A stretch of DNA of 64,000 bases from Pseudisothecium myosuroides (Eukaryota; Streptophyta; Bryopsida; Hypnales; Lembophyllaceae): assembly GCA_951799445.1 (NCBI GenBank), contig OX637289.1:372001-436000 (forward strand), written 5' to 3'. Position numbers and translations under genes: made by a program. This document shows positions 1-51,393 of the stretch, piece by piece. The notes beneath the pieces were generated by a model. It saw only the letters and a list, made by a program, of their open reading frames with translations. It did not search any database and had not been told where the DNA came from. Within the stretch, counting starts at the first letter, position 1. Every line of letters starts with the position of its first letter.

Positions 1-305
1 AATGCCACTTCAATCAGCCGCTTCTTGAGGGCCGCGTGTTGACACATGTCAAAATTTACCACGCCTGAATTCACGTGCACCTGATATCGATCTTGGTCCC
101 AATGGCGATTGATGTGGGCCCAATCTACATACTTCGCACATGTCGTTCTTGTCCATGGCTCACGCTCATCCATCCACCCTTCGTTTGCCAAAATATTCCG
201 GTCATTGAATGTGTCCCAATCCAGCGTTGACCTATTCCCCCTCTTCTTTCTATTTGGGGGTTGACCTTCATGTCCTGAACCACCTGCTCCACCCTCAACG
301 TCCAT
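1..305 (-). CDS. Unrecognised gene, partial (runs off the window start)
   Basis: On the minus strand an open frame starts at an ATG at 305 and stays open to base 1, about 101 codons. It is preceded by a plausible splice acceptor (TGTGCAG just upstream of the ATG), so the ATG may lie in a second exon. The N-terminus is Gly-rich, followed by a basic patch (RKKRGNR). A Trp/Asp-rich stretch follows (LDWDTF, WMDEREPW, YVDWAHINRHWDQ) that looks like a folded protein rather than random translation. I do not recognise the family. A GACGG-rich island with a TATA-like box lies about 250-550 bp upstream (558-860), the same arrangement seen at the kinase and hAT genes, so it may be a further cargo gene of the large hAT element. 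No homologous segment can be seen in arm 2 because a retrotransposon interrupts it. Confidence 0.45.
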   Translation of the reverse strand, partial: MDVEGGAGGSGHEGQPPNRKKRGNRSTLDWDTFNDRNILANEGWMDEREPWTRTTCAKYVDWAHINRHWDQDRYQVHVNSGVVNFDMCQHAALKKRLIEVA

Positions 306-557
306 CCTTGATACCTGCACAATGACACACAAAAGTCTGTATGCGAATACACTGACAAATTGTTTTGCCTTCTGTTGCGTGAAGGCAACTGAAATGTGGC
401 AAAACAAATGCCAAATGTATAACACTTCCTCTCAAATTGCAATGCAAAGCTTTCTCAAGCAAGGACAATGCAACTCAAAAGAGGAAGCGCTCAACAATGA
501 ATCCTTAATCTCACTTATACCCCCCAATTACCGAGCCGGTTAGGGGGGTAATTAAGG
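306..557. other. Intergenic or 5' intron segment of the partial gene
   Basis: The segment has no credible ORF. It contains the putative acceptor for the partial minus-strand gene and a short hairpin around 515-555 (CCCCCC...GGGGGG, either side of AATTACCGAGCCGGTTA). Confidence 0.3.
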
Positions 558-860
558 TCAAATCAGCCGTTTTAATCTGTAATCCAGACCGTCCAAGGCG
601 CCGGGCGGCCCGACGATCAACGGTCTGAACGTCCACTTAGGTTCGGCACAGGTTCGGGGCGCCGTCAAGAGGTTCGGGGGCGCCGTCAACAGGTTCAGCT
701 TATAAAAAAAATCATTGCGCCGTCCGCGAGTTGGACGGACGCGGCGACGGACATTAATTACGGCTCGACGGCCTGTCCGTCCCCTCGACGGCCTGCCCGT
801 CCCCTCCACGGAATGCCCATCCCTTCGACGGCTTGACCGTCCCCTCGACGGCCTGTCCGT
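558..860 (-). promoter_or_regulatory. GACGG/CCGTC-rich island upstream of the partial gene
   Basis: The segment contains many copies of CGACGGCCTGTCCGTC-like units, about 16 bp apart in 760-860. A looser GC-rich part with GGTTCGGGGCGCCGTCAA repeats lies at 640-695. Read on the minus strand, a TATA-like TTTATAAG lies near 700-708, pointing at the gene that starts at 305. The same motif occurs upstream of the kinase genes and next to the hAT terminus, so it could be a shared promoter module or a subterminal transposase-binding array. Confidence 0.5.
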
Positions 861-2263
861 CCTCTTCATTCAGCTAGATATGTATAAAAAAATTTATATT
901 TATTTTTCAGAGACAAAATTACATGTCTTCTTCACTTCTAATAAAAAATTTTAGACTTTTTTGTGGAAAATTGTTTTTTTTGAGAATTTTTGAAGAAAAA
1001 ATGAAGAAAAATTACATCAAATAGAAAATTATTTCAAAAAATCTGAAAATTTCACCATGTGGGTATATTACAATGACAAACATCATGGTGTAAACTCAAT
1101 TTCCGTGTCATTCTATATTTAGAAAATAATAGACATTGAAAATACATCCAATGTTCAAATTGCACTAAAATATTCAATATTAGGAATTTTTTCAAAATTC
1201 AAATTGGAGTAAAAACTAGAGTAGATGCCCTTCATTTTGTTAGTTGGGCTCAAACTCAAAAGATATCATTTTTGTGGAGAAATTTTTCAGATTTAGAGCA
1301 AGGAGCAAGAACTTCCCAAAGTAGACTAAAATAGCATATTTTGTGATCCGTTTTTTTTAATAACTTCTCATTTAAGTGAAGACAATCACTATCAAGACTA
1401 CAAACTCAATTGGATACTCTTCATAACCCGACACAAAAGATCAACAAAGAATATGTGGATGAAAAAGTGCTTCCAATCACTCTCCAGCTTGTTGGATAGT
1501 CATCCAAGCGCCACAAAATGGCGCCTTCGGCGTTCCAGGGTTAGAAATTGAATGCACCGCCAGGACTTCCCTAACTTTCATGGACACAACCCATTCCTGA
1601 TCGACGCCTTATGGTGGGATTGGTGGCTATGTAGGCTGTTCTGTTTCTGTGAAGCAGGAGATGAGCAGTGATTTATTACGGTGTGGTTCCCAAGGTAGTT
1701 GGGGCACATCACGATTGCCTCCAGTACTCTCAATGATGCAACCAACCTTGAATGGATTTTGCAATCAGCCCTTGGTTGGAAATAGGAAAGTCTATATGAC
1801 TAGAATGGTTTGAATAGAATCTTCGACAGAAAAATTCATAGTAATTACGTTTTGAGAAATAAAAATCTGAAAAATTATGGCAACCTTCCGAACTCTATTT
1901 TTGTACATATTTTGTCCAAAAATTAAAATTTCAGTTGCTTTCTTCATTTCTCACATGTGTCTTTGTATGAAAAAAAAATTGATTATTCTTGCTAATGGCA
2001 ACAGACCAAATCAATCATTCTGCTTGTCATAGGCTGGCTTACCTTAGTTATTCATCCAATAGCCCAGTATTCATCCATACATCCAAATTTACACATATAT
2101 ACAATTATTCATCCAAACATAACTTTGCCAATCTACAAATAAATTTATTCATTTAAGTTTATAAGTTGAAATGTGGTCCAAAAGATTCCAAACACAATCC
2201 GAAATCCTAAATTGAATGCATTTTTTCTATTTGTTTAGGATTAAAAAAAAATTCTTGAAGGAT

Positions 2264-2676
2264 TTAAGGGTTTAGGGCGTGGGTTTAGGGTTTAGGGTTT
2301 AGGATTTAGGATTTAGGGATTCAAGGATTTAGGGGTTTAGGGATTTAGGATATTCATCCATTCATCCATTTATTCATCCAACATCCCTTTGTTCATCCAT
2401 ATCCCATTATCCCCTTTATTCATCCGTCCGCATATTTATTTAATCCTACACCGATTATTCATCCCATTATTCATCCCCATTATATGTTGAAATGCCCATT
2501 TATGATTTATCCATACACATATAAATTTTTTCATCCATATATGCAATTATCAATCCCGAACCTACTTGGAAATCTAATCCTAATCCAATGAATTGCTATG
2601 AGAAGTATAGAATAACAACAATTGCAAATGAATGTCAACCCTAACCTCTAAACCCTAAACCCTAAACCCTAAACCC
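2264..2676. repeat. Interstitial telomere-like repeats in inverted orientation with ATTCATCC runs
   Basis: TTTAGGG-type repeats (some degenerated to GGATTTA) occupy about 2264-2350, and CCCTAAA repeats occupy about 2640-2676. ATTCATCC-like runs lie between them. The two telomere-like blocks face each other. The mirror copy lies at about 49574-49986. Confidence 0.75.
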
Positions 2677-3208
2677 AACTAAATTAAAAAATATATTCCG
2701 GGAAAGCTTGTAAGTTTTTCTATCTTATTAGAAAGTTTCAAAAAATTTATGAGCCTGTCCAAAATCCATGTTGTCCCCCATAGGGACAATGTGACTTTAG
2801 GCATTAAACGCATGTATATAGTTGTTTATATAGTCAAAGTTTGTGAAATTTTTGGAACACATTCCTACACTATTCTTGTACAAGATCCTACTATTAGAAA
2901 TTCCAATTTTTTTTTTCTATATTAGCGGTAAAAATGGCGGATTTGAGTGGTTTAGAATGGAAAAGAGGCCATGGGACTTTAGAGGTTAAACATAAGGTAT
3001 TACATAATAATCAATCCATAAGAAAAAACTATAGCACTTAATGGATCGTCGCATTATAATTTATAAACTATCAGGAAAAACATATAAATCACAAAAATGT
3101 AGAGTTAATATACTCAGTTCACAATTTTGGGTTTAGGCATCAAAATGAAACGTAATAATTTTTGGATTTCCTTGATCCATTTTTTTGAAACCACTACTAT
3201 TAAAACAA

Positions 3209-3428
3209 AGGGCCCCCAAATCATGCACTTTGCAATTTTTTTAAATTTATGCACCCTTAAAACAAATAAATAATCGGTGCAGTGCATGATTTTATTTCAA
3301 TTTGTTCTAAGACCCTTAAAATCCAATACAACATCGCCGTCATCGCGGAATGCATGATTTTAAGGGTGTTTGTTCTAACACACTTAAAATCAATTTTTTT
3401 TTTGTAGAGTGTACTATTTAGGGGCCCT
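3209..3428. mobile_element. MITE-like element with AGGGCCCC termini
   Basis: A 220-bp segment begins AGGGCCCCCAAATCATGCAC and ends in an imperfect reverse complement of that (GTAGAGTGTACTATTTAGGGGCCCT). It is AT-rich, has no ORF, and contains inner inverted copies of GCATGATTTTA. A fragment with a similar end lies near 4265-4320. The mirror copy in arm 2 is at 48822-49041. Confidence 0.6.
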
Positions 3429-4529
3429 ATATAAAATGACATTAAGAAGCTTAAAGTCAATCTTACTTCTCATTTAGAATGGAATTCTATTCAGTTGCAC
3501 ACTTGCACGTACATAAAGGAACAAACATAGGAAAAAATCATCCAAGGTCAAACACAAAACTTCTTAATTGGGGTCCTAGACTACTATATTTTTATGTACA
3601 TCCAAACATTTGATGCATTTTATTTGCACCCATTGCCAAGAAAGTTGTTGGCAATGCATGTGTTCTAGCAATCAAAGCATCTCTTAACCCTTAAAGTTCT
3701 TTGTAGGGCTCAATTTTGAATGCAACTGAATCTTCAAATTCCTCGTAGATGAATTTCACCTTTGGGATTATTGTATTTCAATTCCATCCTTTCATGTAAA
3801 TGCATCCTGAAATATAGCGTTTTGTTGAATTTTCAACCTATCTATATTTCAGAGTTCAGAATGTTCTAAAGACATTGTGCTAAAGTTTAGGGTGTCTTCA
3901 TTATGGTTTTTAAAAGTTGAAACTTTAAATTTAATTCCTCAACCTATAAATTTTTTAATTCAAAGTCTACATTTCAACGGTTCAACCGCATTTTGCACTT
4001 TTGATCCCAACTCAAAAATTGATGTCATCTACTCTAGTTTCCACTCCAACTTATGCTTCAAAGTAAGCCCTAAACCCTAAACCCTCCTTTTTGTTGCAAT
4101 TTTTTGTGACTATTCACTATTTGATATTGGGGAAGTTTATGTAAGTATGTAACTTTTGCAAATAAGAGAGGATTGGGTTAAGAGAAAAAAAAAATTTAGA
4201 AGGGATTCCATATCTTATGAAAGGGTTACCGCATCATGTAGTCCACAAGTATTTTATATATTTTAAGGTTGTTACTAAAAAAATTGTAGAGTGCATGATT
4301 TGGTGGCTTTTTGTTAATAAAAGTATTAATTTGTTTGGCATTTATTTGTCCTGTAATTGAAACAAACAAGAACACTGAATTAGCACTCCAGAAATTCCCG
4401 CCACCGTAGAGTACTGTAGTATTTCAAAATTCAAACCCCTGACAAGTCCGAGAGTGGCAAACGAGGTAAATGAATAATTCTACGAACAAGGATTCAGCAT
4501 TTAAGCCCGCATGCGACTTCCAGCAGTGT

Positions 4530-4640
4530 TGGGGACGGCCCGCTCGACGGCCTTCCCGTCCTGGAGATGGAATGTCCGTCCCCTCGACGGCCTGCCCGTC
4601 CCCCCGACGGCCTGTCCGTCCCCGCAAATGGGTATATAAC
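4530..4640 (+). promoter_or_regulatory. Promoter of the kinase-like gene: GACGG array plus TATA box
   Basis: About six CGACGGCCTGTCCGTCC-type units sit at 4535-4625. A good TATA box (TATATAA, 4633-4639) follows about 195 bp before the start codon. The downstream leader contains GCTTGGGAGCGCGGG, which is conserved in the leader of the diverged paralogue at 23541-23561 on the opposite strand. Conservation of array, TATA and leader between the two copies supports a promoter role. Confidence 0.65.
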
Positions 4641-4834
4641 CCGCCTTTTCATTAAGTTCCGCACCAGTCTCTCCTGCTCTAACGGTGCTCTCTTGTCCTG
4701 GATTGGTTGCAGTCCTTGCTTGGGAGCGCGGGCGCTTGGATTGAGGCTGGTTTGAGGAATAAGGGGGGCGGTTTTTCACATTGTGGAACCCGAAACCCTA
4801 ATTCCTTTCATTTTGATAATCTGTTTCTGTCTCG

Positions 4835-6499
4835 ATGGCTAGTCGCGATTTCTCGAAGAGGAAGGTTGATGCCTGGTTTACAGGCGTTGGAGATGAACAT
4901 GATTTCAAATCAACGGATTGCGTTTCAGAGGCCGTAGTTGCAGAAGGGGTCAATGCTATGGTTGGTGGAGAGTCTGTGGCTGCTGGAGAGTCTTCGAAGG
5001 CAAAGAAAAAGCAACGGAACAGGCACAAGTCCGCAAATCCAGAAAAGTGGCCAAGGAAGGTAGCAACGAGAAAATTGCATGAAGTGGCATTGGATTTTTT
5101 GGATCAATATACGATTGCGCAATTGAACACAACATATGTCTCACGCGGATCCGAGGGAGTGGATGCCATTAAAAACAAGTTCCGCCACTTGTTTTGGACA
5201 GCAATGAGCAAGGATGAGTGGTTGGAAGACCGCACAAAGGAATCATTCGAACATTGGTTGGATTCACAAGTTTCAACGTGTGTCTTCAACATTGCCCAAG
5301 TTGCTGAACACATTAAAGGCTTTCAAAGGACTGTGCCGCCCAAACAACAAGCTTTGAATTTGTTGCACAAGAAGGTGTATTGGTGGCATGATGCAATGCG
5401 ACCACTGTCTTCACACAACGTTCGTTCAGCTCCGTGGTTTCAACGAAGTCATAACTTGGCCTTCGGTCAAGTGGCTGCGGGAGGAGTGGTTTTCCTGGAA
5501 AGAGGAGTGGTGGTGGTTCCTTTGTCCGGCCATAGCAAACGAGGGGGCCACGGCAGGGTGCGCAAGGTTTGTCTTCAAAACTCAAAATATGTTCCCGAGA
5601 AGATGGTATTAGCTGGGAAGTCAGCCTTGGACGTTGGTCAATTGAAGAAGTCAAGGGAAAAGTTGTCCATCGAGGCACTGGCTTGTCCATGCAATCATCC
5701 AGGGGTCATTAAATTCTTTGCTATAAATGACATGACCATGGAATGCTATTCTCAATGGTGGAATGGAGGTACTCTCGGCGCCATGTTTACTCTTGATGAG
5801 AAGAATCGAGATCCGGATGAAATTGGGGAGCTGGCTTACTATGCAACTGCACAAACAATGCAAGAAGCCAAACGACTCATGGCGTATAGGCGCAAGCGCA
5901 CCGAACTTGCGTGGGCGTTGATCTGCATTGTGGATGCAGTGCAACAGTGTTCTGTACTCCACAACGACATCACACCCGAGAACATTATGCTTCACTTTCC
6001 AAATGATGATGGAAGAACTATATGGATTGGTCTATGTGATTGGGGAATGGGTAGCCGCATCAATGAAGAAACACCTTCTCTGTACCAATTTGATTGTTCA
6101 CGGGCATTGCAGACCACTCGATCTAAACGTTGGTGGATGGCTCCTGAGTTGATGTACTTGATTGGACAGACCGGAACTTCAACATCTCCAAGTCGCATGG
6201 TGAAGCCACCGTGTGTTAGTATACACACGGACGGATACTCCATAGGAAAATTGGCTATGAAGGTATGGAAAAAGGATCACGGAAATGTAGAGATGATTCC
6301 AGACCATACGGCATTTGGTACATTTCAAGCAACACTAGGCGAATTGTGCAAGGTGGAGCCACTACAACGACGCTCGGTGACATATGCCGTGCAACGATTA
6401 AGTGGTGCTCCAACGTTTTGGATACCACCCATGGATTGCTACCGCGAGGCATGCAAAGAACAAGAACTTGAAGACCAACAGGCAAGAAATGAAGATTAG
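4835..6499 (+). CDS. Protein kinase-like cargo protein, copy A
   Basis: This intact, intronless ORF of 554 residues starts at an ATG downstream of a TATA box. The N-terminus has a KRKVDAWFTGV motif, an acidic stretch, then a Lys-rich patch (KAKKKQRNRHK, about 55-66). The middle holds a conserved helical region. The second half is a protein-kinase fold: Gly-rich loop SKRGGHGRVRKV (about 235-246), a VAIK-like lysine (LAGK), an HRD-like loop HNDITPENIM (about 380) that keeps the catalytic Asp and Asn but replaces Arg and Lys, a DFG-like DWG, and an APE-type WMAPELMY (about 434-441). It may be an atypical kinase or a weakened one. No membrane segment or signal peptide is seen. It lies inside the large hAT element, convergent with the transposase, so I infer cargo; its role is unknown. 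A diverged, broken relative lies at 18323-23459. Confidence 0.85.
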   Translation: MASRDFSKRKVDAWFTGVGDEHDFKSTDCVSEAVVAEGVNAMVGGESVAAGESSKAKKKQRNRHKSANPEKWPRKVATRKLHEVALDFLDQYTIAQLNTTYVSRGSEGVDAIKNKFRHLFWTAMSKDEWLEDRTKESFEHWLDSQVSTCVFNIAQVAEHIKGFQRTVPPKQQALNLLHKKVYWWHDAMRPLSSHNVRSAPWFQRSHNLAFGQVAAGGVVFLERGVVVVPLSGHSKRGGHGRVRKVCLQNSKYVPEKMVLAGKSALDVGQLKKSREKLSIEALACPCNHPGVIKFFAINDMTMECYSQWWNGGTLGAMFTLDEKNRDPDEIGELAYYATAQTMQEAKRLMAYRRKRTELAWALICIVDAVQQCSVLHNDITPENIMLHFPNDDGRTIWIGLCDWGMGSRINEETPSLYQFDCSRALQTTRSKRWWMAPELMYLIGQTGTSTSPSRMVKPPCVSIHTDGYSIGKLAMKVWKKDHGNVEMIPDHTAFGTFQATLGELCKVEPLQRRSVTYAVQRLSGAPTFWIPPMDCYREACKEQELEDQQARNED

Positions 6500-8825
6500 A
6501 GAAAACAATATTAATATATATTATTATAGTTGCAAAATTAGTGTTTACTTAGCACAAGCAGGTCTTATAGTGTAGGCTTGAGGACATCCGTAGCATTGTA
6601 GCACACTTTGTGGCCTCAATCCATTTTGTACAAATTTCTTTTTAATATAAACTTCTTTTATCTAAACAATGAGTGTAATCTTTGTTCCGTTCCTTGCAAG
6701 TTTTTTGTAAATGAATGGTCTTGCGCTACTTGGTTTGTGTTGTCTACAAATCCTAATTCCAAACATTTATACAATAGTGGGTACTGAATGAATTGATGAT
6801 TTGATGTGGTCATGTAGACTACCAAATATAATTTGAAATTAGAGACTTCAAGCTCTAAAGTCCTACTACCTTTTTTCCATCCAAAATCCCTTTAAATTTT
6901 TGAGTCACTCCATGTTTGATTAACCCCTAAAGGACCGTCTGTCCCTACGGGGGACAATTTGGGTCCAGGCAGGTTCCTGTAGCTTTAATTCTTAGAGAAA
7001 TTTTTTGGGATTTTTTGAGGTTCTGCAATTGTGCAAGAGCTTTGTGGACATATAAATTTTATTTCAATTGGTGCCTAGAAGCAAAAGTTACAGGGAGGTG
7101 AAGCAAAATTAGATTTTGGCGGGCAGCACAAAAAAAATCACAAAAACTCAAAATATTTTTTAAAATATTTTTTTTCTAAGAGATTATATTTTTGCCTACA
7201 TGTGAAGCTTTGATTCATTCTAATTGGACTAAATATGAGAAAGTTATGGACAATCATAGTTTTTCGGGCAATCTAAGCATCTTCTTGAAAAAATAACTTA
7301 TAGAACTCATTTTTGAATGCAATTTTAACAATTTTTCCCAAAAAATTGTTAGATAGGGTTTAGTTTGCATATTAGAATAATCTAGCCATTGGGATTATTG
7401 TGTTTCAATTTCCTCTTAAAGCTATTAATAATATAGTGTTTCTTTCAATCTTGAACCTACTATTACGTAACAATTTTTTAATGAATGAAAATTAAGTGTT
7501 TTTTTCCTAATTTTTTTTTCTTAGATTCTCAACTCAACTATTCAACATAAAATATTATGAAAATCTCATGTGTAGTGCAAAAATATTAAGTTAGAAAGAT
7601 TCAAAGCCAAAAAGTCTAGTTGAACAAGGTGCAAATTTTTTTGTTTTTTTCACTTTAAATGCAAATATCTTGCAATGTACTTGGTGAAAGTTTCTGAAAT
7701 TTCTTCCACATATTCTTGTACTAGTCTAGTAGAAGATCCTATGGTTAGATATGCAAAAAACAACAATTTGTAAAGTTTTTTTCTCTTTGCAATAGAAATG
7801 GCAGTTTTGAGTGTCTTTTGACGGAAGAAATGCCTTAGTCCTTTAGGGATTAATGAGATGAAAGTAATGAGGAGTTTTAGTTTGACGGTAGTTATGGAAT
7901 ATTGAATTTGTACTTCAATGACACTTTGAAGTCTTTTTTTAATTCATCTTTCTACTATTTTTGCAAGAAAATAACATCATGACGGCATGACGCATGAGGT
8001 GTAGATTATTTGTTAGAATAGTACACTTGTTGGTTTGGCCTGGCTTGACCACTTTTTATTCTATAACTACATAATTAATAATTTTAGGCTCTTAGGCTCT
8101 ATTCAATCTCATGCCTATTCCTACAGTTGAGTTGACAATGTTACACTTCTATTGCGCAATTTTTGTAAATGATGAAAATCAAGTATTTATCTCCCAACGT
8201 TTTTCCTATATTTTCAACTCAATTCTTGAATATAAAAAATTTTAAATTCAAATTGAATAGTGACAAATTTTTTTGCAAATTGCGGTCAAAATGAATCTAA
8301 AATTGCAAAGACAACATTCCAAAAACCTTTTGTTCCAACTTCAAACGCTAATATCTTTCAATCCATCCTTTCAACTCCTTATGAAAATTTTACTACATGG
8401 TAAAAAAACAAGTGAAGTATTGAAATACAAGATCTTACGGTTAGATTTTGTAAAAAACAATTTTTTTGTAATTTGAGGCAAATGTAGCAGAAATGACAAT
8501 TTTGAGTGTTTTTTTGATAGTCTAATGATCTTGGGAGTTGACATTTTAGGGGTTAATAGTTCCGAGATGGAATCAAAACACAAAAATTCCAAAGACCGAA
8601 AGACGGGCAATTACCATTCCTAAAGGTATGTTTTATATATACATTGAAGGGTACAAATTGCCAAATCGTATCCTTCACGAGAATGAAAGGAAGAAATGTA
8701 ATATTTATTAATGCCGAATACAATATGCAAGGCATTGAGCCTCAAAATCGGAAAAAATGAAAAACCATTGCATTTGCCAATTGCCATTTGGAAACATGAA
8801 GACACTCTGGTCTTTTTCAAAATAC
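6500..8825. other. Spacer between the convergent kinase-like and hAT genes
   Basis: This AT-rich segment has no credible gene. It carries at least two copies (about 7720-7860 and 8420-8560) of a diffuse repeat with a GATCCTA/GATCTTA...GGTTAGA start and an AAATGGCAGTTTTGAGTG-like core ending in TTTAGGG(G)TTAAT. A third copy lies at about 2880-2995, and an inverted relative at about 6840-6990. They look like old MITE-type insertions. Short polyadenylation-type AATAAA/TTTATT words follow both genes. Confidence 0.55.
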
Positions 8826-11800
8826 TCAACGTCTTCCATGCCTAAGATTATGCACAGAAGTGTTTGCATTTGCTTCTCCTTGATTTTGTTGGTTACCACC
8901 AGCTCCCACAAGTGGACCTTGTCGAGGCGCCCTGTAATCACTATCTCCTGGAACCTCACCATCTTCACCTATACTACCACCGATGGATTCACCATCATCA
9001 TTAGATATTGCACTACCACTTTCGCTGGACGCATTTGAATTGCGGTTTCGCTGTGGACGAACTATAGAAGACATTGTCCGAAGAGGTCGTTGGCCCGTTG
9101 CATCTAGAAGACCATCTGTACTGGGTGCTCCTACAATAACTTCTCTTGCAAAAGGCTGGGTTGCTGCTTCTTCCCTCTTCATCCTTCTACGAGTTCTGAG
9201 ACCCCTTCTTTCACCAGTAGTACCTTCTTGTTGTGGACGCTTAGATCGAGTATTCGGACAGGTGGGAGGGCGCACTGAAGTCTGGTTTGGAGTCGTCCGC
9301 TCAGACATATTCAAAGTTTGGACAATACTAGCCAATCGTGTACCTATCGATGAAGTTGGTTCGCGGAGATGAACTTCGGAAGTCGACGGCCTTGATGCAC
9401 TTTGGGTTCGTGGATTATCCAGTACTGGCATTTGACGTTGTAGTGCATCCGAGACTTGATTTGGAGGGGGCATATCCGATTCTCCACCATGAGGGGATCC
9501 TTCTCCATGGGTGCTCCTCATGGGCAATGCCTGTGGTACTACTACGTCTTGTTCACGTCCTCTTTCAACGTCAGTACCATCTCTTTCTGTAGTGGCATCA
9601 ACTTGTACATCTGTAGGGTTTGGACATAGTGGTCTCGGTGCCACAACGTCCTCATTCGTATTTCCCCCACTTGGCCCAGCATTCCACGTTTGTGGCATTT
9701 GTGGTGGACTTCTTTCATGTCCCTCGTGGTCATTGTTGTTATTATCCTCTTCTTGAAAGTCAAATACAGATGCATCAATTAGAGGATCCACTCTTCTCAT
9801 CCCACCAAATCTGTCGTTTGGTGGGTCATCGCCATTATTGGAACCATCATTTGAATCATCATCATCGGGGTCAAAGAGAACCGAACCACGGTCTAAACCA
9901 TCAGACTCATCTGTCATGGAATCTTCTGACATCATATTCTCGGTGTACCACCTTGTCGGATTTGCTGCAGCCCTTTCTCTAAGAGTCTTGGAATTGGTAT
10001 AAATGTAAACCAATTCCTCAGCACGCTTCGATGTCAATCTGTTGCGGGATTTGTTGTGCACAAACAAATACATGCTCCAATTGCGTTCACACGACGATGC
10101 AGAACACACTTGTGCGAGGATCTTTTTGGCAATCGGTGAAAGTATACGAGCACCGGCTCCGAGAAGGTCCCACCATTCGTGAGGCTCCAAATTTAAGGTG
10201 TGTACATCAGGAAGTCCACCAAAGATGCCTCGACGATCTCGAAATGCTTGGTACTCAGACAAAGCAGAAGCAAATGCTTGATCTCCAATTGTCAATTGGC
10301 GCAATATTCTCAATATGGCTTCTCTTGCCTCATCGTCATCCATTAGCATGACTTCATCAAGTAAAAAGGGATTCAATAAAGCCCCTGCGTAATGCAAATC
10401 TGTCCTAAGCATGTTCCACCGATCGTAGAAGGCATCGACGGCGGGAACTTCATACCGTGGTTCCAATGAAAATGGTGGATCTTTCAAAGATAAAACATGC
10501 TTTTCCACGTTCTTCATCACAAGCCATGCCTTGGCCATGCACGGGTGCTTGCCATCAAACTCTCGAAGAGCAACCAAGACGGGCTCCACCATGTGCACAA
10601 AGTTCAAACATTTCCTCCAAAATTCATCTGTTCGCACATATCGTCGCACATTGTTAGCCTTTTCTTGCTTTTGACGTGATGTCAATTTCCTTGTGTACTC
10701 ATTCCACTGCGCATCATGGACTGTCGATTCCACCGCTTGCCTCACTTCCACCAAACGCTCAATCATGAGGAATGTGGTCGCAAAACGTGTCTCAACGGGA
10801 TTTTTCAAAATTTGATTTGGAGAATGTCGTCGAAAAATTGCAAGTGGCATGTGATGCATGCAAATGTATTTCACAATTGTCTTTGCCTTCTTGACCATAC
10901 TTGTTATCCAGTCTTGCTTTCCCCAATCTTCAAGTAGAAGATCAAGTGCATGTGCTGAACAACCTTGAAAATATATGTGTGGAAATCGACCAAGTAACAA
11001 AGTGCCAGCGGCCAACATGTTTGCTGCATTGTCTGTACAAACTTGTACCACATTCTGTGCCCCTACCTCGTCAATGTAATCACCCACACAATTAGCCACG
11101 TAAGTAGCATCTTTGCATTCGCCTGTTGTGTCTATTGATCCAAGAAATACCTCTCCACTTGTACATGCCAACATGACATTCATCAATGGTCGATGTGTGA
11201 CATTGTCCCATCCATTAGAGCATATTGTCACGCCGTATTTGTGGATTGATGCCCTTGTCTTCTCTGCTACCGTTGCAGCCACTTCGTCTTTTGTGGATTT
11301 CATGAGCTTTGTACGAAGTGCATGGTAAGCTGGAGGTTTGTAGGCAACTCTCGATTCAGATGTTGATTTCACTGCATCCAAAAAAGCAGGGTTCCTCGCT
11401 ACATTGAATGGTATATTGGCTTCATAGAAAAATCTAGCCCACTTCTTGTCAAGTACTTGCTTGTTTGATGTGTTCATTCCTTCTTGTACAGACAATTGCC
11501 TCATCGATCGATTGTGGGTCGAACTAGGGTTGGGCGCCTCCGATGATCGTACTTGAGAGCTTTGGCCTCCAGTGTTTTCCCCTCCCTCATTTGCTGAAAC
11601 TGAGGCATCACGTTGTTGCTCACCACGTACTGCACTTGGTTGTATCGTTGATGGTGATGTCACTTCCACGTCGCCTACAGTTCCATCCGGAGCGACTGCA
11701 GGTATATTTCCTCCACAATTAAAAAACACCACTTTCACAGCTGCACTGGCTTTGTTGCACGCTCTCACTCCAGGGAGGTTGTCATTTTGTCTGTATCCCA

Positions 11801-11918
11801 AATGGAAAAGCAATCGATCCTTTCGATAACTTAACAAAGTTTGGCAAAATTTGCATGAAACTTTTCCATCCGATCTTAGGGTGTACCAAGGTTCCCAATG
11901 TGACCTTCCTCCTCCCAT
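8826..11918 (-). CDS. hAT transposase with BED finger, DUF659 and hAT dimerisation domains, copy A
   Basis: The intact ORF is 1030 residues from the ATG at 11918. An upstream in-frame extension to 12032 starts at GTG and crosses a good splice acceptor (TTTTTTATGCAG, exon start about 11947), so I prefer the inner ATG, with a 5' exon upstream. Domains in order: a BED-type zinc finger (SCKFC, then the FHLGYRQ region), a polar linker, and a DUF659/RNase H-like core with ICSNGWD and CTDNAANM acidic residues and the GCSAHALDLLLEDW motif. The hAT C-terminal dimerisation domain follows (CSASSCERNWSMY, NRLTSKRAEELVYIYTN). A C-terminal extension of about 330 residues is unusual: Asp/Asn-rich runs, then a basic segment (RTRRRMKREE). 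It would cut and join the ends of the element in the nucleus. Both copies are open, so activity is possible. Confidence 0.93.
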   Translation of the reverse strand: MGGGRSHWEPWYTLRSDGKVSCKFCQTLLSYRKDRLLFHLGYRQNDNLPGVRACNKASAAVKVVFFNCGGNIPAVAPDGTVGDVEVTSPSTIQPSAVRGEQQRDASVSANEGGENTGGQSSQVRSSEAPNPSSTHNRSMRQLSVQEGMNTSNKQVLDKKWARFFYEANIPFNVARNPAFLDAVKSTSESRVAYKPPAYHALRTKLMKSTKDEVAATVAEKTRASIHKYGVTICSNGWDNVTHRPLMNVMLACTSGEVFLGSIDTTGECKDATYVANCVGDYIDEVGAQNVVQVCTDNAANMLAAGTLLLGRFPHIYFQGCSAHALDLLLEDWGKQDWITSMVKKAKTIVKYICMHHMPLAIFRRHSPNQILKNPVETRFATTFLMIERLVEVRQAVESTVHDAQWNEYTRKLTSRQKQEKANNVRRYVRTDEFWRKCLNFVHMVEPVLVALREFDGKHPCMAKAWLVMKNVEKHVLSLKDPPFSLEPRYEVPAVDAFYDRWNMLRTDLHYAGALLNPFLLDEVMLMDDDEAREAILRILRQLTIGDQAFASALSEYQAFRDRRGIFGGLPDVHTLNLEPHEWWDLLGAGARILSPIAKKILAQVCSASSCERNWSMYLFVHNKSRNRLTSKRAEELVYIYTNSKTLRERAAANPTRWYTENMMSEDSMTDESDGLDRGSVLFDPDDDDSNDGSNNGDDPPNDRFGGMRRVDPLIDASVFDFQEEDNNNNDHEGHERSPPQMPQTWNAGPSGGNTNEDVVAPRPLCPNPTDVQVDATTERDGTDVERGREQDVVVPQALPMRSTHGEGSPHGGESDMPPPNQVSDALQRQMPVLDNPRTQSASRPSTSEVHLREPTSSIGTRLASIVQTLNMSERTTPNQTSVRPPTCPNTRSKRPQQEGTTGERRGLRTRRRMKREEAATQPFAREVIVGAPSTDGLLDATGQRPLRTMSSIVRPQRNRNSNASSESGSAISNDDGESIGGSIGEDGEVPGDSDYRAPRQGPLVGAGGNQQNQGEANANTSVHNLRHGRR

Positions 11919-12221
11919 CGCTCTTATATGTTCTCCTCCACCTCCACCTGCATAAAAAACAATAAGATTAGTATTCTGTTTGAAATGTGATGTAGAAACA
12001 ACACTTGTTGCTCTCACAACAAGTGCCACCACATCACACTCTTCTTGGACTTCGCTCTAGAGCAATGGTTGTACTCCAACCAAGTCACGAGAGGCAAAAT
12101 CAGCAAGGAAAAGTAATCTTGAATAGGCGTAAGTCCTAAATATGCACCATGAAGCCGCTCCTAAAACCCTAAATCCGAAACCCTAAAATAACCCAGGTAG
12201 ACGAACATTCTGACGCAACGG

Positions 12222-12440
12222 ACATCCGTCCAGCGTCGGCCTGTCCGTCCTGGCGACGGTCTCCCGTCCAGCGTCGGCCTGTCCGTCCTGGCGACGGTCT
12301 CCCGTCCGGCGTCGGCCTGTCCGTCCAGGAGACGGTCTCCCGGCCAGCATCGGCCTGTCCGTCCAGGAGACGGTCTCCCGTCCAGCGTCGGCCTGTCTGT
12401 CCAGGAGACGGTTGCCCGTCCAACGACGGCCTGGACAGAC
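12222..12440 (-). repeat. 38-bp GACGG tandem array beside the hAT terminus (about five units)
   Basis: Units of 38 bp repeat with CGGCCTGTCCGTCC at about 12236, 12274, 12312, 12350 and 12388, followed by a degenerate sixth. Arm 2 has two more units, which accounts for the 76-bp offset between arms. The array lies between the hAT terminus and the transposase, so it could be a promoter module, a transposase-binding subterminal array, or both. Confidence 0.85.
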
Positions 12441-12474
12441 TTCATCCGCGCCGTCGACGGTCCCGTCAGCATTG

Positions 12475-12568
12475 GCGACGGGTCCTGACGCGTCAGGACG
12501 CGTCAGGACGGACGTGTCATGACATCCGGACGTGAAAAGCCCACGTCACGTCCGGATAGACAACCCTG
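12475..12568 (-). other. hAT element terminus and subterminal palindromes, copy A
   Basis: Read inward on the minus strand, the end is CAGGGTTGTCTATCCGGACG. Subterminal palindromes follow (GGACGTG...CACGTCC around an AAAGCCC centre, and CCTGACGCGTCAGG repeats). CAGGG is a classical start for hAT terminal repeats. The 8 bp outside are CTTTGGAA, the expected target duplication. The opposite end of the element is not in the window, so this cannot be confirmed here. Confidence 0.75.
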
Positions 12569-13060
12569 CTTTGGAAGATGGAGCATGTTGTTGAAGAAGG
12601 AAAATTTCCTGACAATTCCTGCGCTTATGAAATCGTTCATGGATGTAGAAACCATTCCCACTATCCCCCACCTTATAGAAGAAGTGCCTGATTTCAAGGC
12701 TTTCATTGCAGGCAAATTTTTGGCCGGTAGCCATATCATGATTGGGCACACAAAGCCCCAACAAGTGAAGTTCTACCTTGATTCGACGGGTTGTCCTGTC
12801 ATGAAGTACAAATTGTTGTGCACTGACCTAGATTGGTTGCCCTCAGGCGTAGGTGGCGGAATTAAATTATGGCATGAGGATTCGGAGGGGCAAAGTTTAT
12901 GGCCCCGTGGAGTACCACAGGCAGTTCTGCCAATCCCAATGAAAGCTGAGGCAGACATTGTGAAGGGTATATCCGCGTTTATTAAGTATTGGGAGAACTT
13001 GTGCAACCAAGACCGCACCGGGGAATGCCGAAGACAACTGGAGCATATAGTGCACTATTG

Positions 13061-13065
13061 GCGTG
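13061..13065. other. Target-site duplication, left (GCGTG)
   Basis: GCGTG precedes the TG end of the insertion. ACGTG follows the other end at 16950-16954, a 4 of 5 match. Confidence 0.6.
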
Positions 13066-16000
13066 TGTCGTAACACGTGAAAGCACAAATCCCCCTTTAA
13101 GTGTTAATCTAGTGCAAAAACACCTAAGATGACTCGTGTACTGTTCCCACAGGATTTCAACTAGTAGTATCCTCAAAATAACTGGAACAGGATCCGGAAC
13201 TTAAAACCAAAGACAAATAGAATCCAGGAATAAAAACGTAGAACTAGACTTCCCAATCTGTGTTCATTTAACTTTCTCCTGTATCAACCTTGCTTTCAAA
13301 CATATTACCAATCAACAAGAACCAGGTTTGCATCTCTTCACGAAAATGATAGTAACTTAATATCCTACTTGACTAAATAAGGAATTAGGATGAGTGTCTT
13401 GATCCTGTACCTTTCCCGGATCCGGATCTAGCAAGCAAATGTAAACAATGGTATAGTTTAACCTCTACATCAGAGGATTCCGCTCTTGGACTTAAGGAAG
13501 GACACGTAAATCCTACCCTCCACTGGATTAAAGTGGCTGAAGTTCCACTAAAAGATAAACACAAAGAAAAACCAAGAAAACCCGGAAAGCAAGTATTTCC
13601 TCACAACTGATCCGGGAAGTTACTCCAGACAAGAAGGTCACTCAGGAAACCCCTACAATCCCCACATTGCTACAACGACAGTCCTATCCAGATAGATTCC
13701 CAAGAGCAGGATCAAATAAACCGATAACTAAGAGATCCCATCTACTTTCCCGTCCCTATCTTCCGGATACAGCAGGACCTCATCAGACGTCAGCTAGCGC
13801 TCAAACTCCAATCTGAAGTAATCACCTAACCTAGGAAAGGCTATCCCACTCAAAAGACACTCCAGAAACATCAGTAGTGGAAACTCCCTCTTAGTACACA
13901 AGATGTCTATTACCAATCCCAAATACTCCCAGAACCAGATCCAGATAGAATCTGGGGGCTACTTCTTCTGCTCCAACACCTGCAAACCAGCTATCCGCAC
14001 TACCAATGCTCAACACACTGACGGCATACCAACACAGACTGAGACTTTTCAGACCAGTACTTGCGAAGTGGAAATCTGAAATTAATTTGCAAAGTACTGA
14101 AAAATACACATAAGAATACCCGGGGCTTCAAACCAAAATCAGCCCCCTAAATACCAAACACCCAGAGAACTCTAAAGGTCCCTGGGAATCAAAAGCAAAG
14201 AACCAGAGAATGACACCTGTCATTCCCCTTATCCCCCCCACGTTGACTTTCCTACCACACACAGCCGATCCGCAAAATGTGGATCTCAGATCCTAAAAAC
14301 CCGGAAAGTGAAGTCCAGGTTCATCCAACTGAAAAGCAGCTAACTGACTGCTTCCTACCTATCAAAAACTTGAGTTTTAATACTAACCATGCTGGGGTCA
14401 ACTCAAGAAACTACCTAACTACTTCTTCTGCCGCTTCGGAGAAGGTTCCTCCAACTTGACAGCTCCTTTCCGGGCTGGCTGTTTCCTGCTTGGAGATGGC
14501 TTAAGCGGTTTTGAAGACTTTGCCTTAGTCGCTGAGGCAGACTTACCCTTGAATCGTGAAGGAGAGATGGCTTCCAGCTCTGATTCTTCTTCTGATTCCG
14601 TGCCCGGATGTGACTTGGACTCGGAACCGGATTCAGACTGGCTGCCCTCCTTCGCTGAGTTACTCGGCGACTCATCTTCCTCGGAATGGTAACTCACAGG
14701 GGCCTCCTCCCTTCCTCGTTTTGGTGTTGTCTTCTTTCTTGTTGTGCTGGGCATTGTTGGAGACGGCTTCGAATCCTTGCTCTGAGGTGTCCCAAGTTCG
14801 GATCCGGACTTCCGGGCCTTCTCCTTGGATCCGGACCCATGCAATGATCCTTCTCCCCCTTCTAACTTTCGCTTGGAAACATCCTCGGCGGGTGTCTTTT
14901 CTTCCTTGGGCTTACTCTTTGGCTTCACATTTGCTGGCGGCGACATTGGTACCTTTTTAGAGCCCTTAAACAATCCCGATTCTTGAAGAACGTCCCGGAT
15001 CTTGTACATGAACTTCTCCATAACATCGGAATACTTAGCCAGGACCTCTACTGACTTTACTACTGCCTCAGCCCCGGACTTAAGGATTCCCTCATCAAAC
15101 AGTTTGGCTTTGTTGATTACATTCCCTGAATTGGATACAAAAGCCCTAACTCTACAGAGAGTCTCCTCAGCCTCTGGGGAAAGTTTCCTTCCCCCCTTAC
15201 TCTCCTTAAGTTCCCGGGTTAGTTCCTGGTTCTGATCAGTCAATTCCCTAACCCGGGATTCCCACTTCCGGTTCTCTCTGTCCCGGAGTAAGCCCTTAAT
15301 TCTCTCCGTGAGTTTAGATGCTTCAATCCCACCCAGAAGCCCACATGCACTCCTGACTGCACCTCTCTCAACATCTAAGTAACTCTTCTCTGACCCTCTC
15401 TAGTTCCTCAATGATTCTTCCTAGTGAGTCATCCCGGGTCTCTTTCGGTTCCGGGGATGCTCGACTCTCACTCTTGGTCCCTTTCTTCTTCTCTGAGGCT
15501 GGAATTTTCTCTAGGTTTCCTCTTTCCCCTCTGAGGATTCTCTCTCTGATTCCTTCTCTTTCTCTTCCTCTACTTCTTCCTCTACTTCCTCCTCTCCCTT
15601 TGGAGTGATATTCAGTTTCATGAGCGTGGCAGCAGCCTTATAGGCAGTCCTTTCCGGACCTCTCAAGGTTTCTAGAAACTCATATAAGTGAAAGATGAAT
15701 GGCCCTATCGCTGTTGCCTTGGTATTTCCTAAAGATGAGACCATCTTTGCTACTCTCTCCTTCACAATACCAGCCCAAAACACTTTCCTTTCTCCACTCA
15801 GTGCTCCGAATATCGTGTTGGCCCAAGTCACTGTAATCCGGGTTGGCCACTCCGGATACAGGATTGGAAGTAGGAATTCTAGCACTCTTTTCTCTCTCGC
15901 ATCCTTACAGTGTGATACGGTGTACCCATCATTGCCATGAGGAGCTTCAGAGAACTTACCCTCATGAAACTTGAGTGTTCGGGAAGCCATACCCTCTCCC

Positions 16001-16949
16001 GGTCTTGAAAAATCGTAAACCTGTTTCTAGGTATCGATAGTCCAACTGCTAGGAAGCGCCCGGGAAGTCTTGTCCCATTCATTTGACTGGTCCCTTATTA
16101 ACTCCCGGATCATGTCCTCGTTCCTCAGCTGCCAGAGTCGGCAAAGAAAACCCGCACATCCCATCTGCCCGAGGTCCTCCTCCAACTGCTTCCGGTAACC
16201 AGGATCTGTTGGGATGATCGGGAGGACATTCTTGAACTTCAGGGTAGCAACTCTGCTCCCTTCGCCCTTCACCATTGTGCTCCAAAGTTCTATCAATCTC
16301 CCTCAAAAACAATCCTCACACAGTCCCTCACTAATGCAAAACTACAGAGTTTCCGTCCTAGCACTGGTCCTATCTCTCTCTCTCGGGTCCGGAAAACTCG
16401 GAGTTCTCTCTTTCCTTGCAACCTGACTCTCAACACAATGACTCCAAGCGCTCCAAGGTCTCCACAATCCTCAAACTGAGAAGTGAGGGAAGAAAATCCA
16501 ACCCCTGGGTCTTCTCCCGTCCAGCCGCTTTCCAGCCATTAGGGTTTCCCGTTCCCGCTAAAATCCTGGAAGACTGTGACCGTTAAACGGTCTTCTTTAT
16601 CTTCCGGTAGAGCCGTTGGATCGCAGAATTGCCCTAACAGCTTCCTCTGGGATCTCCGGTATCCTCTGGTACCCTCCGGTACATGTTCATACCCGGCCCC
16701 GGTATATTGAACAAGTCCAGATTCAACCCCCGGTTCCGTATCCGGTTCCGGACATCTGGTTAAATCAGGAAACTTTAATTCCCTTTCTTAACCTATTTAT
16801 CTATGTACGATTATCCTATACTGAAGATGTCTTAATTTTGGTAAATCTCATATGTAAGCCTTGCAAAAAGCTAAAATTTTTACCATTTCTCACTCCTTCT
16901 TTCATATTACTAGCTAACTAACCTTATCCTTACATTTTGTGCTCCCACA
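13066..16949 (-). mobile_element. Element 1: 3.9-kb TG...CA insertion with one degenerate ORF
   Basis: Bounded by TGTCGTAAC at the left and GTGCTCCCACA at the right, with near-identical 5-bp flanks, it interrupts gene Y in frame. TG...CA ends plus a 5-bp duplication are the mark of LTR-retrotransposon integration. I see no pair of long direct repeats, no reverse transcriptase and no clear primer site, so it may be a solo LTR carrying an ORF, or a non-autonomous element. Its left side shares scattered blocks with element 2 (for example AGTGGCTGAAG after a CATCAGAGG block), and its protein is homologous to that of element 2. CCGG and GGATCCGG words are frequent. Confidence 0.75.
14419..16296 (-). 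pseudogene. Transposon-associated protein of element 1, broken
   Basis: Three ORF pieces on the minus strand (16296-16027, 15990-15511, 15243-14419) align in order with the intact protein of element 2. Shared blocks are an N-terminal EDLGQMGCAGF...MIREL region, then TRITVTWANTIFGALSGERKV, and finally KAKLFDEGILKSG before a long Ser/Lys/Glu-rich tail. The first two pieces are in the same frame, separated by one TAG (16027-16029); this falls next to the tryptophan position of element 2. Frame changes interrupt the Glu-rich linker near 15250-15510. This is a decayed copy. Confidence 0.75.
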
Positions 16950-16954
16950 ACGTG
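16950..16954. other. Target-site duplication, right (ACGTG)
   Basis: It pairs with GCGTG at 13061-13065. Removing the insertion plus one duplicate restores the gene Y frame, which independently supports these borders. Confidence 0.6.
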
Positions 16955-17325
16955 GTGTGAAGGTAGCACTTGAAGAACCACTACCTGACTCTACTGTTTT
17001 AAAGGATGACTTCTGGCCGACTACTCGTATTCAGGCGACTCGGGTTGATCAATTAGACAACGATGGAGAGGATCGTGAAGAGTTTGGGGAAGATGATGTG
17101 TACGTCGGGCCATTGAGTGGTCGCCCACAACCGTCCTTCAGGGTGGGTCGAGATCTCTTCGAAGGCTATTTTGTTGCGATTACTCCCGCGGAAAATGAGT
17201 TGCAACTAGTGTGGATTGCAAGGGCGTTGTCTGATCCTTTTGTTGATCCACTACATCCAAATTCTGTGCGCATTCAATACTTTCGTCCAACAGCAGTAGA
17301 TGACGATATTCGAATATCTTATTAA

Positions 17326-17600
17326 AGTATTTGCTATTGTATTTTATTTTTACTTTGTTTCTTGAACACGTGGAATGTTTGACATGGAACATAACAACAT
17401 TTGTTGGAAGGCGTTCATTGTTTGCATGACTCTCATTTTAATGGAAATTGCTACTTTAGACCAATTAATTGAGTGATTTTTGAACTAAAGTAGAGCCCAT
17501 GCAATTCACTAGTTCTGCCTTCAAATACCTAAGACTATTTTGAGAGGGCGGCCACCCTCCATTTTAATGAATATAATGTTGTTAGTATTATGAGTGAAGT
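17326..17600. other. 3' flank of gene Y
   Basis: This AT-rich segment has no credible ORF. It lies between the TAA of gene Y and the hAT-type promoter remnant. Confidence 0.5.
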
Positions 17601-18125
17601 ATAGCATGGAGGAAGCACTTGTTGTTCACACGGCACGTGCTCTTCCAACACGGTCATCTTGAACTCCGTTCTAGCGCAATGGTTGTACACCAACCAAGTC
17701 AACAGACCAGAGAGCAACAGGAAAAGGTGTTCCGAGAAAAACAGAAACACGATTATATACCAGCCCGCTGTGGAAGGACACTATTTCCACCGGAACAGTG
17801 TCAGGCGACGGACCCCTGTAGAGTGTGGACGGACTACTCTGGATCCGTCCTCCAACGGTTTTACCACTGTGGACAGACGCCGTCTGGGCCTGTCTTCGTC
17901 TAGACGGACCCAAGGCGACGGTTTAGGCTAACACAGACTTCCCGACCTACAACGACGCTGACCCCAGGGACGGACCGTCAGGACGGCTTCACGTAGTGGA
18001 CGACATCTTCTGCTAGTTTACGGAAGTGGTGCCGTCGACGGCCTCCGACGTTGGGAGGAAACGGCACTTCAGACCGTCCGCTAGGGGACGGGATGGTGAC
18101 GAACATGGACGGACCCCTGTGCATC
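17600..18125 (-). promoter_or_regulatory. Orphan hAT-type promoter and leader with GACGG array
   Basis: The stretch at 17606-17710 is a diverged copy of the leader upstream of the hAT gene in arm 1 (12005-12110). Shared words include GCACTTGTTGT/ACACTTGTTGC, GCGCAATGGTTGTAC and CCAACCAAGTCA, in the same orientation. Read on the minus strand, a TATA box (GTATATAATC, about 17752-17761) follows a CCGTC/GACGG-rich block at 17810-18125. No transposase ORF follows to the left. This is a hAT promoter without its gene, a remnant of an older related element. Confidence 0.65.
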
Positions 18126-18322: not shown

Positions 18323-19917
18323 TTACGTTTCAGGATGTGCTTGCTTGAGCTCTTGTTCTACGCGGGCGTCACGGTAGCATTCCACGGGAGGTGCCCAGAA
18401 CGTTGGAGCACCACTAAGGCGTTTCACTGCAGTTGTCAACAAATGTCAGTGTTGAGCCTCCTCCTTGCATAACTCTCCCAACGTCGCCTTGAAGGCGCCG
18501 AATGCCGAAGTGTCCGGAATCATGTACTCATTGCGTCTGTCCTCCTTCCATATCTTCTGTGCAAGTTTTCCAACTGAATACCCGTCCGTGTGTATGTTGA
18601 CACAATGGTCTTCTCCAACACGAGTTGGAGACATTTATGTTCCATGGGCGCCAATAACATACATTAACTCAGGTGCGACCCACCAACGGTGGGTTGCGCA
18701 GCTTCTTCAAGTCAGTCCCGATCTTAGATGTGTACCGGGAAGGGACTGCTTCCTGTATGCGGGTAGCCATTCCCCAATCCGTGAGCCCAATCCACACAAT
18801 TCGGCTGTCATCGTTGGAGAAGTGAAACATAATGTTTGCCAGTGTGATGTCATTATGGAGGATAGAGGCTTGTTGGACTGCTTCGATGATGCAGATCAAC
18901 GCCCACGCGAGAGCGGTGCGATTACGTCGGTACGCAATAATTCGCTTGGCCTGTTGCTTGTCCTATTTGCTGGCGTAGTATGCAAGCTCTTCATACTCCC
19001 CGTAGTCCTTGGCACAGTCGTCCGCATTTATCATGTCGGCCAACGTGCTTCCATTCCACTAGTGGGAAAAACACTCCATTGTCTCCCCTTGAACTGCAAA
19101 GAACTTAATGACCCCCGGATGGTCAATGGGACATACCATGGCCTCGATGGACAACTTCTCCCGGCTTCTCTGCAAGTTATCCCCAGGCAGGGACATCTTC
19201 CCAGCTCGATGCATCGTTTCCGGAATTTGGGGACACTTCTGGAGGAACACCTTCCGCACCCGACCATGCCCTCCCCGTGCGGTGTGGCCCAACAAGGGAT
19301 ACACAACCACCGTAGATGGCAAGAAGAGTATAGTGCCTGCTTGCCCTACTCCAATTGCATGCTCTTGATTTTTTTGAAACCAGGGGGCCTTGCTCACATT
19401 GCTGTTGGACAGTGGACGTACTGCTTTTGCCCACCACTCCACCTTCTGATGCCACACGGCGGCATCTCCTCGCTTCGGTGGTGCGTTTTGATCGAAGCCA
19501 CTAAGTTTTGCAGTGACGTGAGGGAGGTTCGTGATGCAGGTTTGAACTTGATCCTCCAACCACTGGTCAAAGCCTTCCTTCAGGCGATCATTGTGCCATT
19601 TTTCCTTGTTCATGAGCACCCCAAACATACAGCGCAGCTTGTTCCTGATTCGATCCATTCTAGCGGACCCAAGCGGGACGTACGTTCTGTTCAGTTGGTC
19701 CACCATATATTTCCCAAAAAAATCTAACGCACTCCTGTGCACGGCCGTAGTTGCTTCCTTCGACGGCCACTTCCCCTGCCGATCAGTTTTTCGTCGGTTC
19801 TTTTTCTTCTTCCTCTTCTCTTTCTTTGACTCCGCGGCGCCAGGAGGAGTCACTTGTCCCGGCTCTGACGCGCAATCTAGGCTGTTGGGCGATGAAACCA
19901 CTTCATGGGTGGCAGTG

Positions 19918-19922
19918 GCATC
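19918..19922. other. Target-site duplication, left (GCATC)
   Basis: GCATC here and at 23410-23414 flank element 2 exactly. Confidence 0.85.
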
Positions 19923-35200: not shown

Positions 35201-35688
35201 AGTTCCAGTACAACACGGCCCGTTACACCTATGTGGGTGAGGGTCACTGTGGCCCTCACCCTCTCTTGTGGCCCTCGGTACCAAACTTCGTCCACGATGG
35301 GACGACATGTATAATTTGTCTTGAGCCTTTCGGCCCCGAGGGCGGATGGAGCTTAGGTACATGTCCCCATGTGTACCACCCCGGATGCCTCATTTTGCAC
35401 ATGGTCACAAGAAGAAGGTGTGCGCAATGCAAGGCCCCATTTCATCAACGATTGTACAAGATGTTTGGATTAGAGGACCACATGCCGGAACACTACGAAT
35501 ACAACGAGGCAAACTTACCGGGCCCTTCCAACTCGAGCCATTGGGGTGATGATATGGCTTGGATGTGGAAGTGGAAGCACTCCGAAAGACACCTCCCTTC
35601 TCTAACTGTATCTGAGATATCCTTGGGAAGTGATGAACAAGTTACAGAGGTCTTTAAAAAGGTCATTCCGGACAAAGAATTCTACTAG
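32284..35688 (+). pseudogene. Two-exon RING-H2/coiled-coil gene with two in-frame TGA codons
   Basis: Exon 1 (32284-32346) has an ideal GCCACCATGG start, 21 acidic codons and a GAG|GTGGGT donor. A CCATAG acceptor opens exon 2 at 33868, in the same phase. Exon 2 stays in one frame to TAG at 35688 but for two TGA codons, 34216-34218 and 34858-34860. The protein would be about 628 residues. Order: acidic N-terminus, a helical region (KKRLKEVSLALWGEL), two coiled-coil stretches (34380-34500 and 34730-35060), then a RING-H2 finger (CIICLEPF, CPHVYHPGC, CAQC; about 35308-35430) and a short C-terminal tail. RING-H2 proteins are usually E3 ubiquitin ligases. The two stops suggest a recent pseudogene; both could come from CGA by C-to-T change. 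Confidence 0.72.
32347..33867 (+). repeat. Intron filled with degenerate AGAGTTAAAAGT repeats
   Basis: From about 32400 to 33480 the sequence is an irregular purine-rich run of AGAGTTAAA, AAAGTAGAAGTCAAAAGT and TTTAGAGTTA words on one strand. The strong T-poor/C-poor bias on one strand and absence of ORFs fit simple-sequence expansion inside an intron. Confidence 0.6.
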
Positions 35689-36245: not shown

Positions 36246-36248
36246 TCA

Positions 36249-51391: not shown

Positions 51392-51393
51392 AC

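Follow-up and report, generated by a model that had tools for sequence, protein, structure and literature searches.

Transposons of the hAT superfamily are among the best-studied mobile elements of eukaryotes. They are generally regarded as compact units, classical members measuring a few kb and holding a single gene. Extra genes are described for a few other systems. A fungal TET/JBP gene has moved between different superfamilies (PMC12730594), and the giant element Burro carries RING- and ubiquitination-related motifs (PMC6431247). Here we describe a 64,000-bp stretch of DNA from Pseudisothecium myosuroides, called the window throughout (contig C3, positions 372001-436000 of the 388-Mb assembly G000), which contains parts of two copies, A and B, of a much larger element. 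With high confidence we regard it as a giant hAT transposon (18 kb, and 35 kb in one relative) with a conserved DUF659/hAT transposase gene, a kinase-like gene and a RING-H2-type gene, the last two probably serving as helpers.

Results

Copy A and its insertion site

A first-pass annotation, made from the letters of the window, had noted two arms that stop at the same CAGGG base next to different flanking DNA, and had predicted a second terminus and 8-bp target-site duplications. Both arms (859-12568, forward, and 39606-51393, inverted) do terminate at CAGGGTTGTC with differing flanks, and their main matching block aligns over 11,577 bases with 99.76% identity. The 20 kb to the left of the window were read as well. 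The right terminal inverted repeat of copy A lies at 12559-12568 (minus strand, CAGGGTTGTC reading inward), followed by the duplication CTTTGGAA at 12569-12576; the predicted second CAGGGTTGTC end was found left of the window at C3:366505, directly after the identical 8 bp. As CAGGGTTGTC ends and CTTTGGAA are present on both sides, copy A is a complete hAT element of 18,064 bp (C3:366505-384568, plus strand, window -5495 to 12568, with 1-12568 inside the window); a size of at least 11.7 kb had been proposed. Its GC content is 0.40 and its 10-bp terminal inverted repeats are perfect. A 17-bp terminal word occurs twice without mismatch in the window, and a further occurrence at 29721 has three mismatches; the shuffled control gave 0.07 matches at three or fewer mismatches.

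Joining the flanks of copy A in silico, minus one duplication, yielded a single unbroken DUF7869-like frame (12577-13073, plus strand, together with L009:3280-4623). Copy A was therefore inserted inside this DUF7869-like open reading frame (ORF), whose Pfam match is under the cut-off.

In element coordinates, the RING gene occupies 3555-5801 (minus strand, 748 amino acids), the kinase-like gene 10331-11995 (plus strand, 554 amino acids) and the transposase gene 14322-17414 (minus strand, 1030 amino acids). Besides these, copy A has no further ATG-to-stop ORF of more than 129 amino acids, a scan that spliced genes would escape.

Copy B and the nested retrotransposon

Copy B runs on the minus strand from 39606 to 51393, as judged by alignment to A, and stops there because a young gypsy long terminal repeat (LTR) retrotransposon was inserted (51394-64000, plus strand, 5' LTR 51394-53673, continuing to C3:439731). 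The two 2,280-bp LTRs are 99.956% identical (one difference), and the insertion is marked by the 5-bp duplication AGGAC. Copy B resumes beyond the gypsy element and ends at C3:446071. The duplication ATCCGCAC precedes it at 39598-39605 and recurs past its other end at C3:446072, so that the predicted duplications hold for both copies.

Left of window position 12215, A and B are distinguished by 10 substitutions and a single insertion or deletion of 2 bp. The annotation had called the transposase and kinase genes intact in each arm. Both frames are indeed open in both arms, but copy B is the less intact: its kinase (45751-47415, minus strand) carries E280K, where all 14 aligned proteins have E, and codon 73 of its RING gene is a stop. 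The transposase of B (40332-43424, plus strand) carries E419K relative to A. The two copies, 27 kb apart, near-identical and bounded by different duplications, look like the product of a recent local jump.

The three genes

The transposase of copy A (8826-11918, minus strand) matched DUF659 (2.3e-41) and Dimer_Tnp_hAT (1.2e-9) in Pfam, both over the cut-offs. Outside the two arms, no transposase was found in the window by tblastn.

The kinase-like ORF of copy A (4835-6499, plus strand) matched Pkinase (PF00069) at 1e-8, with 35.4 bits against a cut-off of 31.7; its relative P0010 reached 38.3 bits. In an alignment of 14 proteins, K262 and E280 were present in all 14, N383 and D402-W-G in 13 and D378 in 12, one protein being frameshifted upstream of both D378 and D402-W-G. 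A structure model had a mean pLDDT (predicted local distance difference test) of 67 and a pTM (predicted template modelling score) of 0.50, and the PDB sequence search returned at best a weak match, yeast Fus3 (3.1e-4).

A degraded kinase relic at 18344-19970 (minus strand, about 53% protein identity) covers kinase residues 71-430 with stops, the rest being in another frame. With codons containing stops omitted from the counts, nonsynonymous (Ka) and synonymous (Ks) divergence between gene and relic was 0.38 and 1.9 over 358 codons (Ka/Ks about 0.2), and 0.33 and 3.4 in a second stretch. Adjoining the relic, 17657-18110 is GACGG-rich and contains a 45-bp match (89%) to the upstream region of the transposase gene; it is perhaps a promoter remnant of an old copy.

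A possible third gene, suspected at 1-305, proved real. These positions (minus strand) are the 5' part of a RING/coiled-coil-like gene that encodes 748 amino acids in full (L029:159-2405, minus strand). The eight Cys/His ligands of the pattern C-x2-C/C-x-H-x2-H-x2-C/C-x2-C are identical in all four sequences compared, including a relative at 33% identity. In Pfam, a RING relic in the window scored 25.2 bits, and the relative P0084 has a precomputed PF13639 assignment. The product is RING-like, of the RING-H2 type, and a putative ligase.

The RING relic, degraded and interrupted, was identified by sequence match at 33868-39007 (plus strand, 43-52% identity), and would have the inverted order and orientation expected of an old copy. 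Between gene and relic, the nonsynonymous and synonymous differences per site (pN and pS) were 0.34 and 0.75 (saturated) over 565 codons, and two short stretches gave Ka 0.37/Ks 3.5 and Ka 0.44/Ks 1.1. Read with the caveat of saturation, these values and those of the kinase point to long purifying selection on both genes. A second RING relic (43%) lies just past the far end of copy B, at C3:446735-448840.

Young copies in the genome

A whole-genome search with a 2-kb query from the kinase region detected 20 copies at 94-100% identity on eight contigs. The regular linkage of kinase and hAT genes that the annotation had proposed was borne out, as a young transposase gene lay near the young kinase gene in all 20; measured from the query end, the distance was 2.83 kb in 17 copies and 3.4, 7.9 and 15.8 kb in the others. 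The RING gene was linked just as consistently, since all 20 young RING loci had both partners, some matches being partial or split.

Both ends were read in seven copies. Six had exact 8-bp duplications, and one had a pair matching at 7 of 8 positions; the further young copies gave GTGGCACA, TGCTCACC and ATAAAAAA, and the imperfect pair was TGCGGCAG and CGCGGCAG. Single-base changes at one end were seen in C6a, C3a, C4a and C2a. The right end was examined in 11 copies and not found in C3b.

Full-length open frames were retained by 11 of the 20 copies for the kinase, 10 for the transposase and eight for RING. Most changes among the eight kinase and six RING copies read were transitions, and several copies had private stops; such transition-rich decay would be expected if inserted copies become silenced. 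Young copies together with the near-identical pair in the window suggest recent movement of the element. Two young copies on contig C4 (C4:7960693 and C4:8004032) lie 43 kb apart with the transposase split at the identical residue, as if a single insertion had undergone segmental duplication.

Diverged relatives

Among the candidates found genome-wide, 78 of 301 were scored for the kinase, 45 of 447 and 42 of 381 for the transposase, and 60 of 721 for RING; the absence of a scored partner is therefore not firm. The second of the transposase sets was obtained with the relative P0022 as query, and its 42 rows give identities to P0022, not to the transposase of the window; from it, 15 loci new beyond the window-query set were added. 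The 95 RING matches were merged by hand to 59 loci, and the hit tables behind the linkage and open-frame counts were transcribed manually.

Three arrangements of kinase and transposase were found, here called young, middle and distant. The young order is RING(-) kinase(+) transposase(-), with kinase and transposase convergent. In the middle family (transposase 57-65% and kinase 50-61% identical to those of the window) the two genes stand in tandem in seven pairs, six with gaps of 0.8-1.5 kb and one of 11 kb, and a RING relative follows the transposase at six of the seven. At two middle loci, on contig C11 at 13.6 and 7.07 Mb, RING relatives (about 50% and about 41%) flank kinase and transposase; of these two, the young family seems to keep one.

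In the distant family (kinase 27-39%; transposase 40-44% to that of the window or to P0022) all 12 pairs are divergent, with gaps of 8.8-18.2 kb. Three of the transposases came from the window query (40-43%) and nine from the P0022 query (41-44%). The pairs on C8, on C10 and at C11:981479 have a RING relative (33-34%) in the order RING(+) kinase(-) transposase(+), and on C1 RING lies between the two other genes. The linked diverged kinases number 21; two were dropped, the relic of the window, which pairs with copy A and so with a different element, and a pair 27.8 kb apart.

A diverged RING locus lay within 30 kb of a diverged kinase in 23 of 39 cases, compared with a mean of 2.68 and a maximum of nine in 2000 random draws; loci were placed uniformly per contig, with the clustering of old elements on C11 uncontrolled and the extents of C8 to C11 guessed from the largest coordinate. 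Both partners were found for 17 diverged RING loci, two of which (C3:405865 and C3:446735) pair solely with the young copy B. The association of kinase and hAT gene, which the first-pass annotation had suggested to be old, extends to relatives in which identity to the window's proteins is 27-39% for the kinase and 32-39% for RING. Contig C11 holds 32 of the 58 diverged kinase loci, and may be a repeat-rich or non-recombining chromosome.

Homology between distant-family copies stops at CAGGGTTGTCTTCCCC before RING and at AAGACAACCCTG after the transposase; no such ends were found on the inner side of the kinase or close to the transposase, and in the C10 copy no right end was found at the expected place. 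The relative on C8 measures 35,350 bp and may hold later insertions. It is flanked by the 8-bp duplication CTTGGAAG, and its 10-bp ends are those of copy A. Its RING and kinase genes are 33% and 32% identical to those of the window, and its transposase is 41% identical to P0022, itself 41% identical to that of the window. In metagenome data, kinase P0004 and transposase P0016 both occur on contigs of length 6480, and P0010 and P0022 on contigs of length 15563, each pair probably on one contig.

Repeat arrays

Copy A contains 74 copies of GACGG/CCGTC, against a shuffle mean of 13.9. Four clusters of 2,230 bp account for 59 of the 74: the left end, the RING promoter, the kinase promoter, and the right end with the transposase promoter. 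The counts were not reached in any of 500 shuffles for any of the four, whose borders were drawn after inspection. The words GGACGGACA and GGACGGGCA are present in all four, on either strand. A repeat scan placed 20-bp tandem repeats of this motif upstream of the RING gene (764-862), and the RING-upstream unit again upstream of the kinase gene (4543-4623). Between the transposase gene and the right end of A stands a 38-bp tandem array of 5.5 units (12226-12433); in B it has 7.5 units (39741-40024).

Elsewhere in the window, ORFs of another repeat family (15511-15990 and 21125-22894) have the motif IFGALSGERKV in common and no Pfam match over the cut-off.

Discussion

Far-diverged relatives carry the same trio. 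Judged by sequence and linkage, the kinase and RING genes therefore seem to be functional components of the transposon rather than accidental cargo. The label of cargo in the first-pass annotation is probably wrong, as both behave like conserved core genes. We infer a helper role for the two. The transposase would cut and paste the whole unit by binding to its termini and to the subterminal GACGG/CCGTC repeats. Because the same repeats precede the kinase and RING genes, the three genes are probably switched or marked jointly by a single DNA-binding protein that the element encodes. The kinase and RING proteins, in turn, may favour transmission of the element itself. Most likely they would do so by altering or degrading a host factor for silencing or repair, or through control of the transposase.

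An explanation of the arms as an inverted segmental duplication, in which the kinase and RING are separate, unrelated nested repeats, draws on their being long, near-identical and close together; we give it next to no credence in view of 20 copies on eight contigs, 17 of them with equal internal spacing, and the different 8-bp duplications bounding A and B contradict it. As to what the helpers would do, two accounts appear about equally probable, each possible but short of likely by itself. The kinase may phosphorylate and the RING protein ubiquitinate the transposase, with control of copy number or cell cycle as the outcome. Transposases can be regulated by phosphorylation, and the three genes are encoded together with a promoter motif in common, whereas the C-terminal tail of the transposase, which is long and looks low in complexity, is at most suggestive. 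Alternatively, the RING protein, the kinase and the motif arrays may keep the DNA of the element unsilenced, in analogy to VANC of VANDAL. The targets of VANC are short tandem motifs, non-coding and fast-changing between copies (PMC5735166), and here the array differs in unit number between A and B, with related repeats at the kinase and RING promoters and at both ends; such end arrays are, however, equally expected as transposase-binding subterminal repeats, and the likeness to VANC is one of arrangement.

That a host kinase and RING gene were captured by chance and are carried unused, as in Pack-type or Starship-like elements, is improbable. This explanation would fit the private non-synonymous changes and stops in decaying young copies, and hATs can carry foreign genes, for example the fungal hAT7 with a TET/JBP gene (PMC12730594). 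It fits poorly with a pair that is kept in the distant relatives under differing gene orders, with purifying selection between lineages, and with conserved catalytic and zinc-ligand positions.

A Polinton/Maverick or virus-derived giant element was considered and rejected: no gene for DNA polymerase, capsid or integrase emerged in copy A, where the scan for ATG-to-stop ORFs above 129 amino acids, blind to spliced genes, revealed just the three genes. Pattern-based scans of IMG/VR contigs, limited in reach, also found no relatives of the kinase, RING or transposase.

Several observations weigh against the interpretation as a giant hAT with conserved helper genes. All three frames are open and full length in two of the 20 young copies, and most young copies are therefore decaying. 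The kinase motifs HND and DWG depart from HRD and DFG, the RING gene scores 17.8 bits in Pfam, under the cut-off of 27.3, and Ks is close to saturation. Within the C8 element there are five stops in the match to kinase residues 51-476 and two in the transposase match. No scored transposase lies within 40 kb of 37 of the 58 diverged kinases, and 11 of the 39 diverged RING loci have neither scored partner. For ten transposase loci of a family with 1149-amino-acid frames (40-42% identity), no kinase was scored at a distance of 40 kb or less, and this related hAT may do without one. In a quick transposase tree of 72 rows, the three kinase-linked rows fall in two places (three changes, no clustering beyond shuffles), and thus the tree alone does not show a single origin of the linkage.

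Beyond the giant hAT itself, we propose, tentatively, that these elements form an undescribed ancient clade whose kinase-RING module disarms host silencing or repair, and in which one motif array may wire the ends and the three promoters into a self-contained regulon. Two extra signalling-type genes, kept through deep divergence and re-orderings, indicate that cut-and-paste elements can become multi-gene units, and a lineage of giant hATs runs counter to the usual expectation of size. The element also opens a direct route to studying how a plant-type host may be manipulated by transposons via phosphorylation and ubiquitination.

Among the open-access papers listed, judged by title and abstract opening, none dealt with a hAT that carries both a kinase and a RING gene. 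A review devoted to giant eukaryotic transposons does not use the term hAT in its main text (PMC6431247), and a term search of a 2026 review on plant gene capture gave no match to hAT or kinase (PMC13317346). From fungi, hATs with an additional gene are already known (PMC12730594).

Comparison with known systems

The element resembles the hAT superfamily (Ac/Tam3/hobo-like) in its DUF659 and C-terminal dimerisation domains, CAGGG-type ends, 8-bp duplications and subterminal repeats, and is unlike classical hATs in its size and its three conserved genes. VANDAL elements are not known to us to contain a kinase or RING gene. Arabidopsis VANDAL with VANC is similar in that it, too, is a DNA transposon of plants, has accessory genes and contains non-coding tandem motif arrays that change rapidly (PMC5735166), but it belongs to another, MuDR-like superfamily (PMC12730594). 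In spanning tens of kb with several genes, the element is like the giant eukaryotic transposons Polinton/Maverick, Teratorn, Helitron and Burro (PMC6431247). With the fungal hAT7 it has in common the combination of a hAT and an extra gene that different families have and that is presumed to benefit the element; the fungal system differs in its 7-bp duplications, in its DNA-demethylation gene, a TET/JBP dioxygenase, and in its fungal hosts (PMC12730594).

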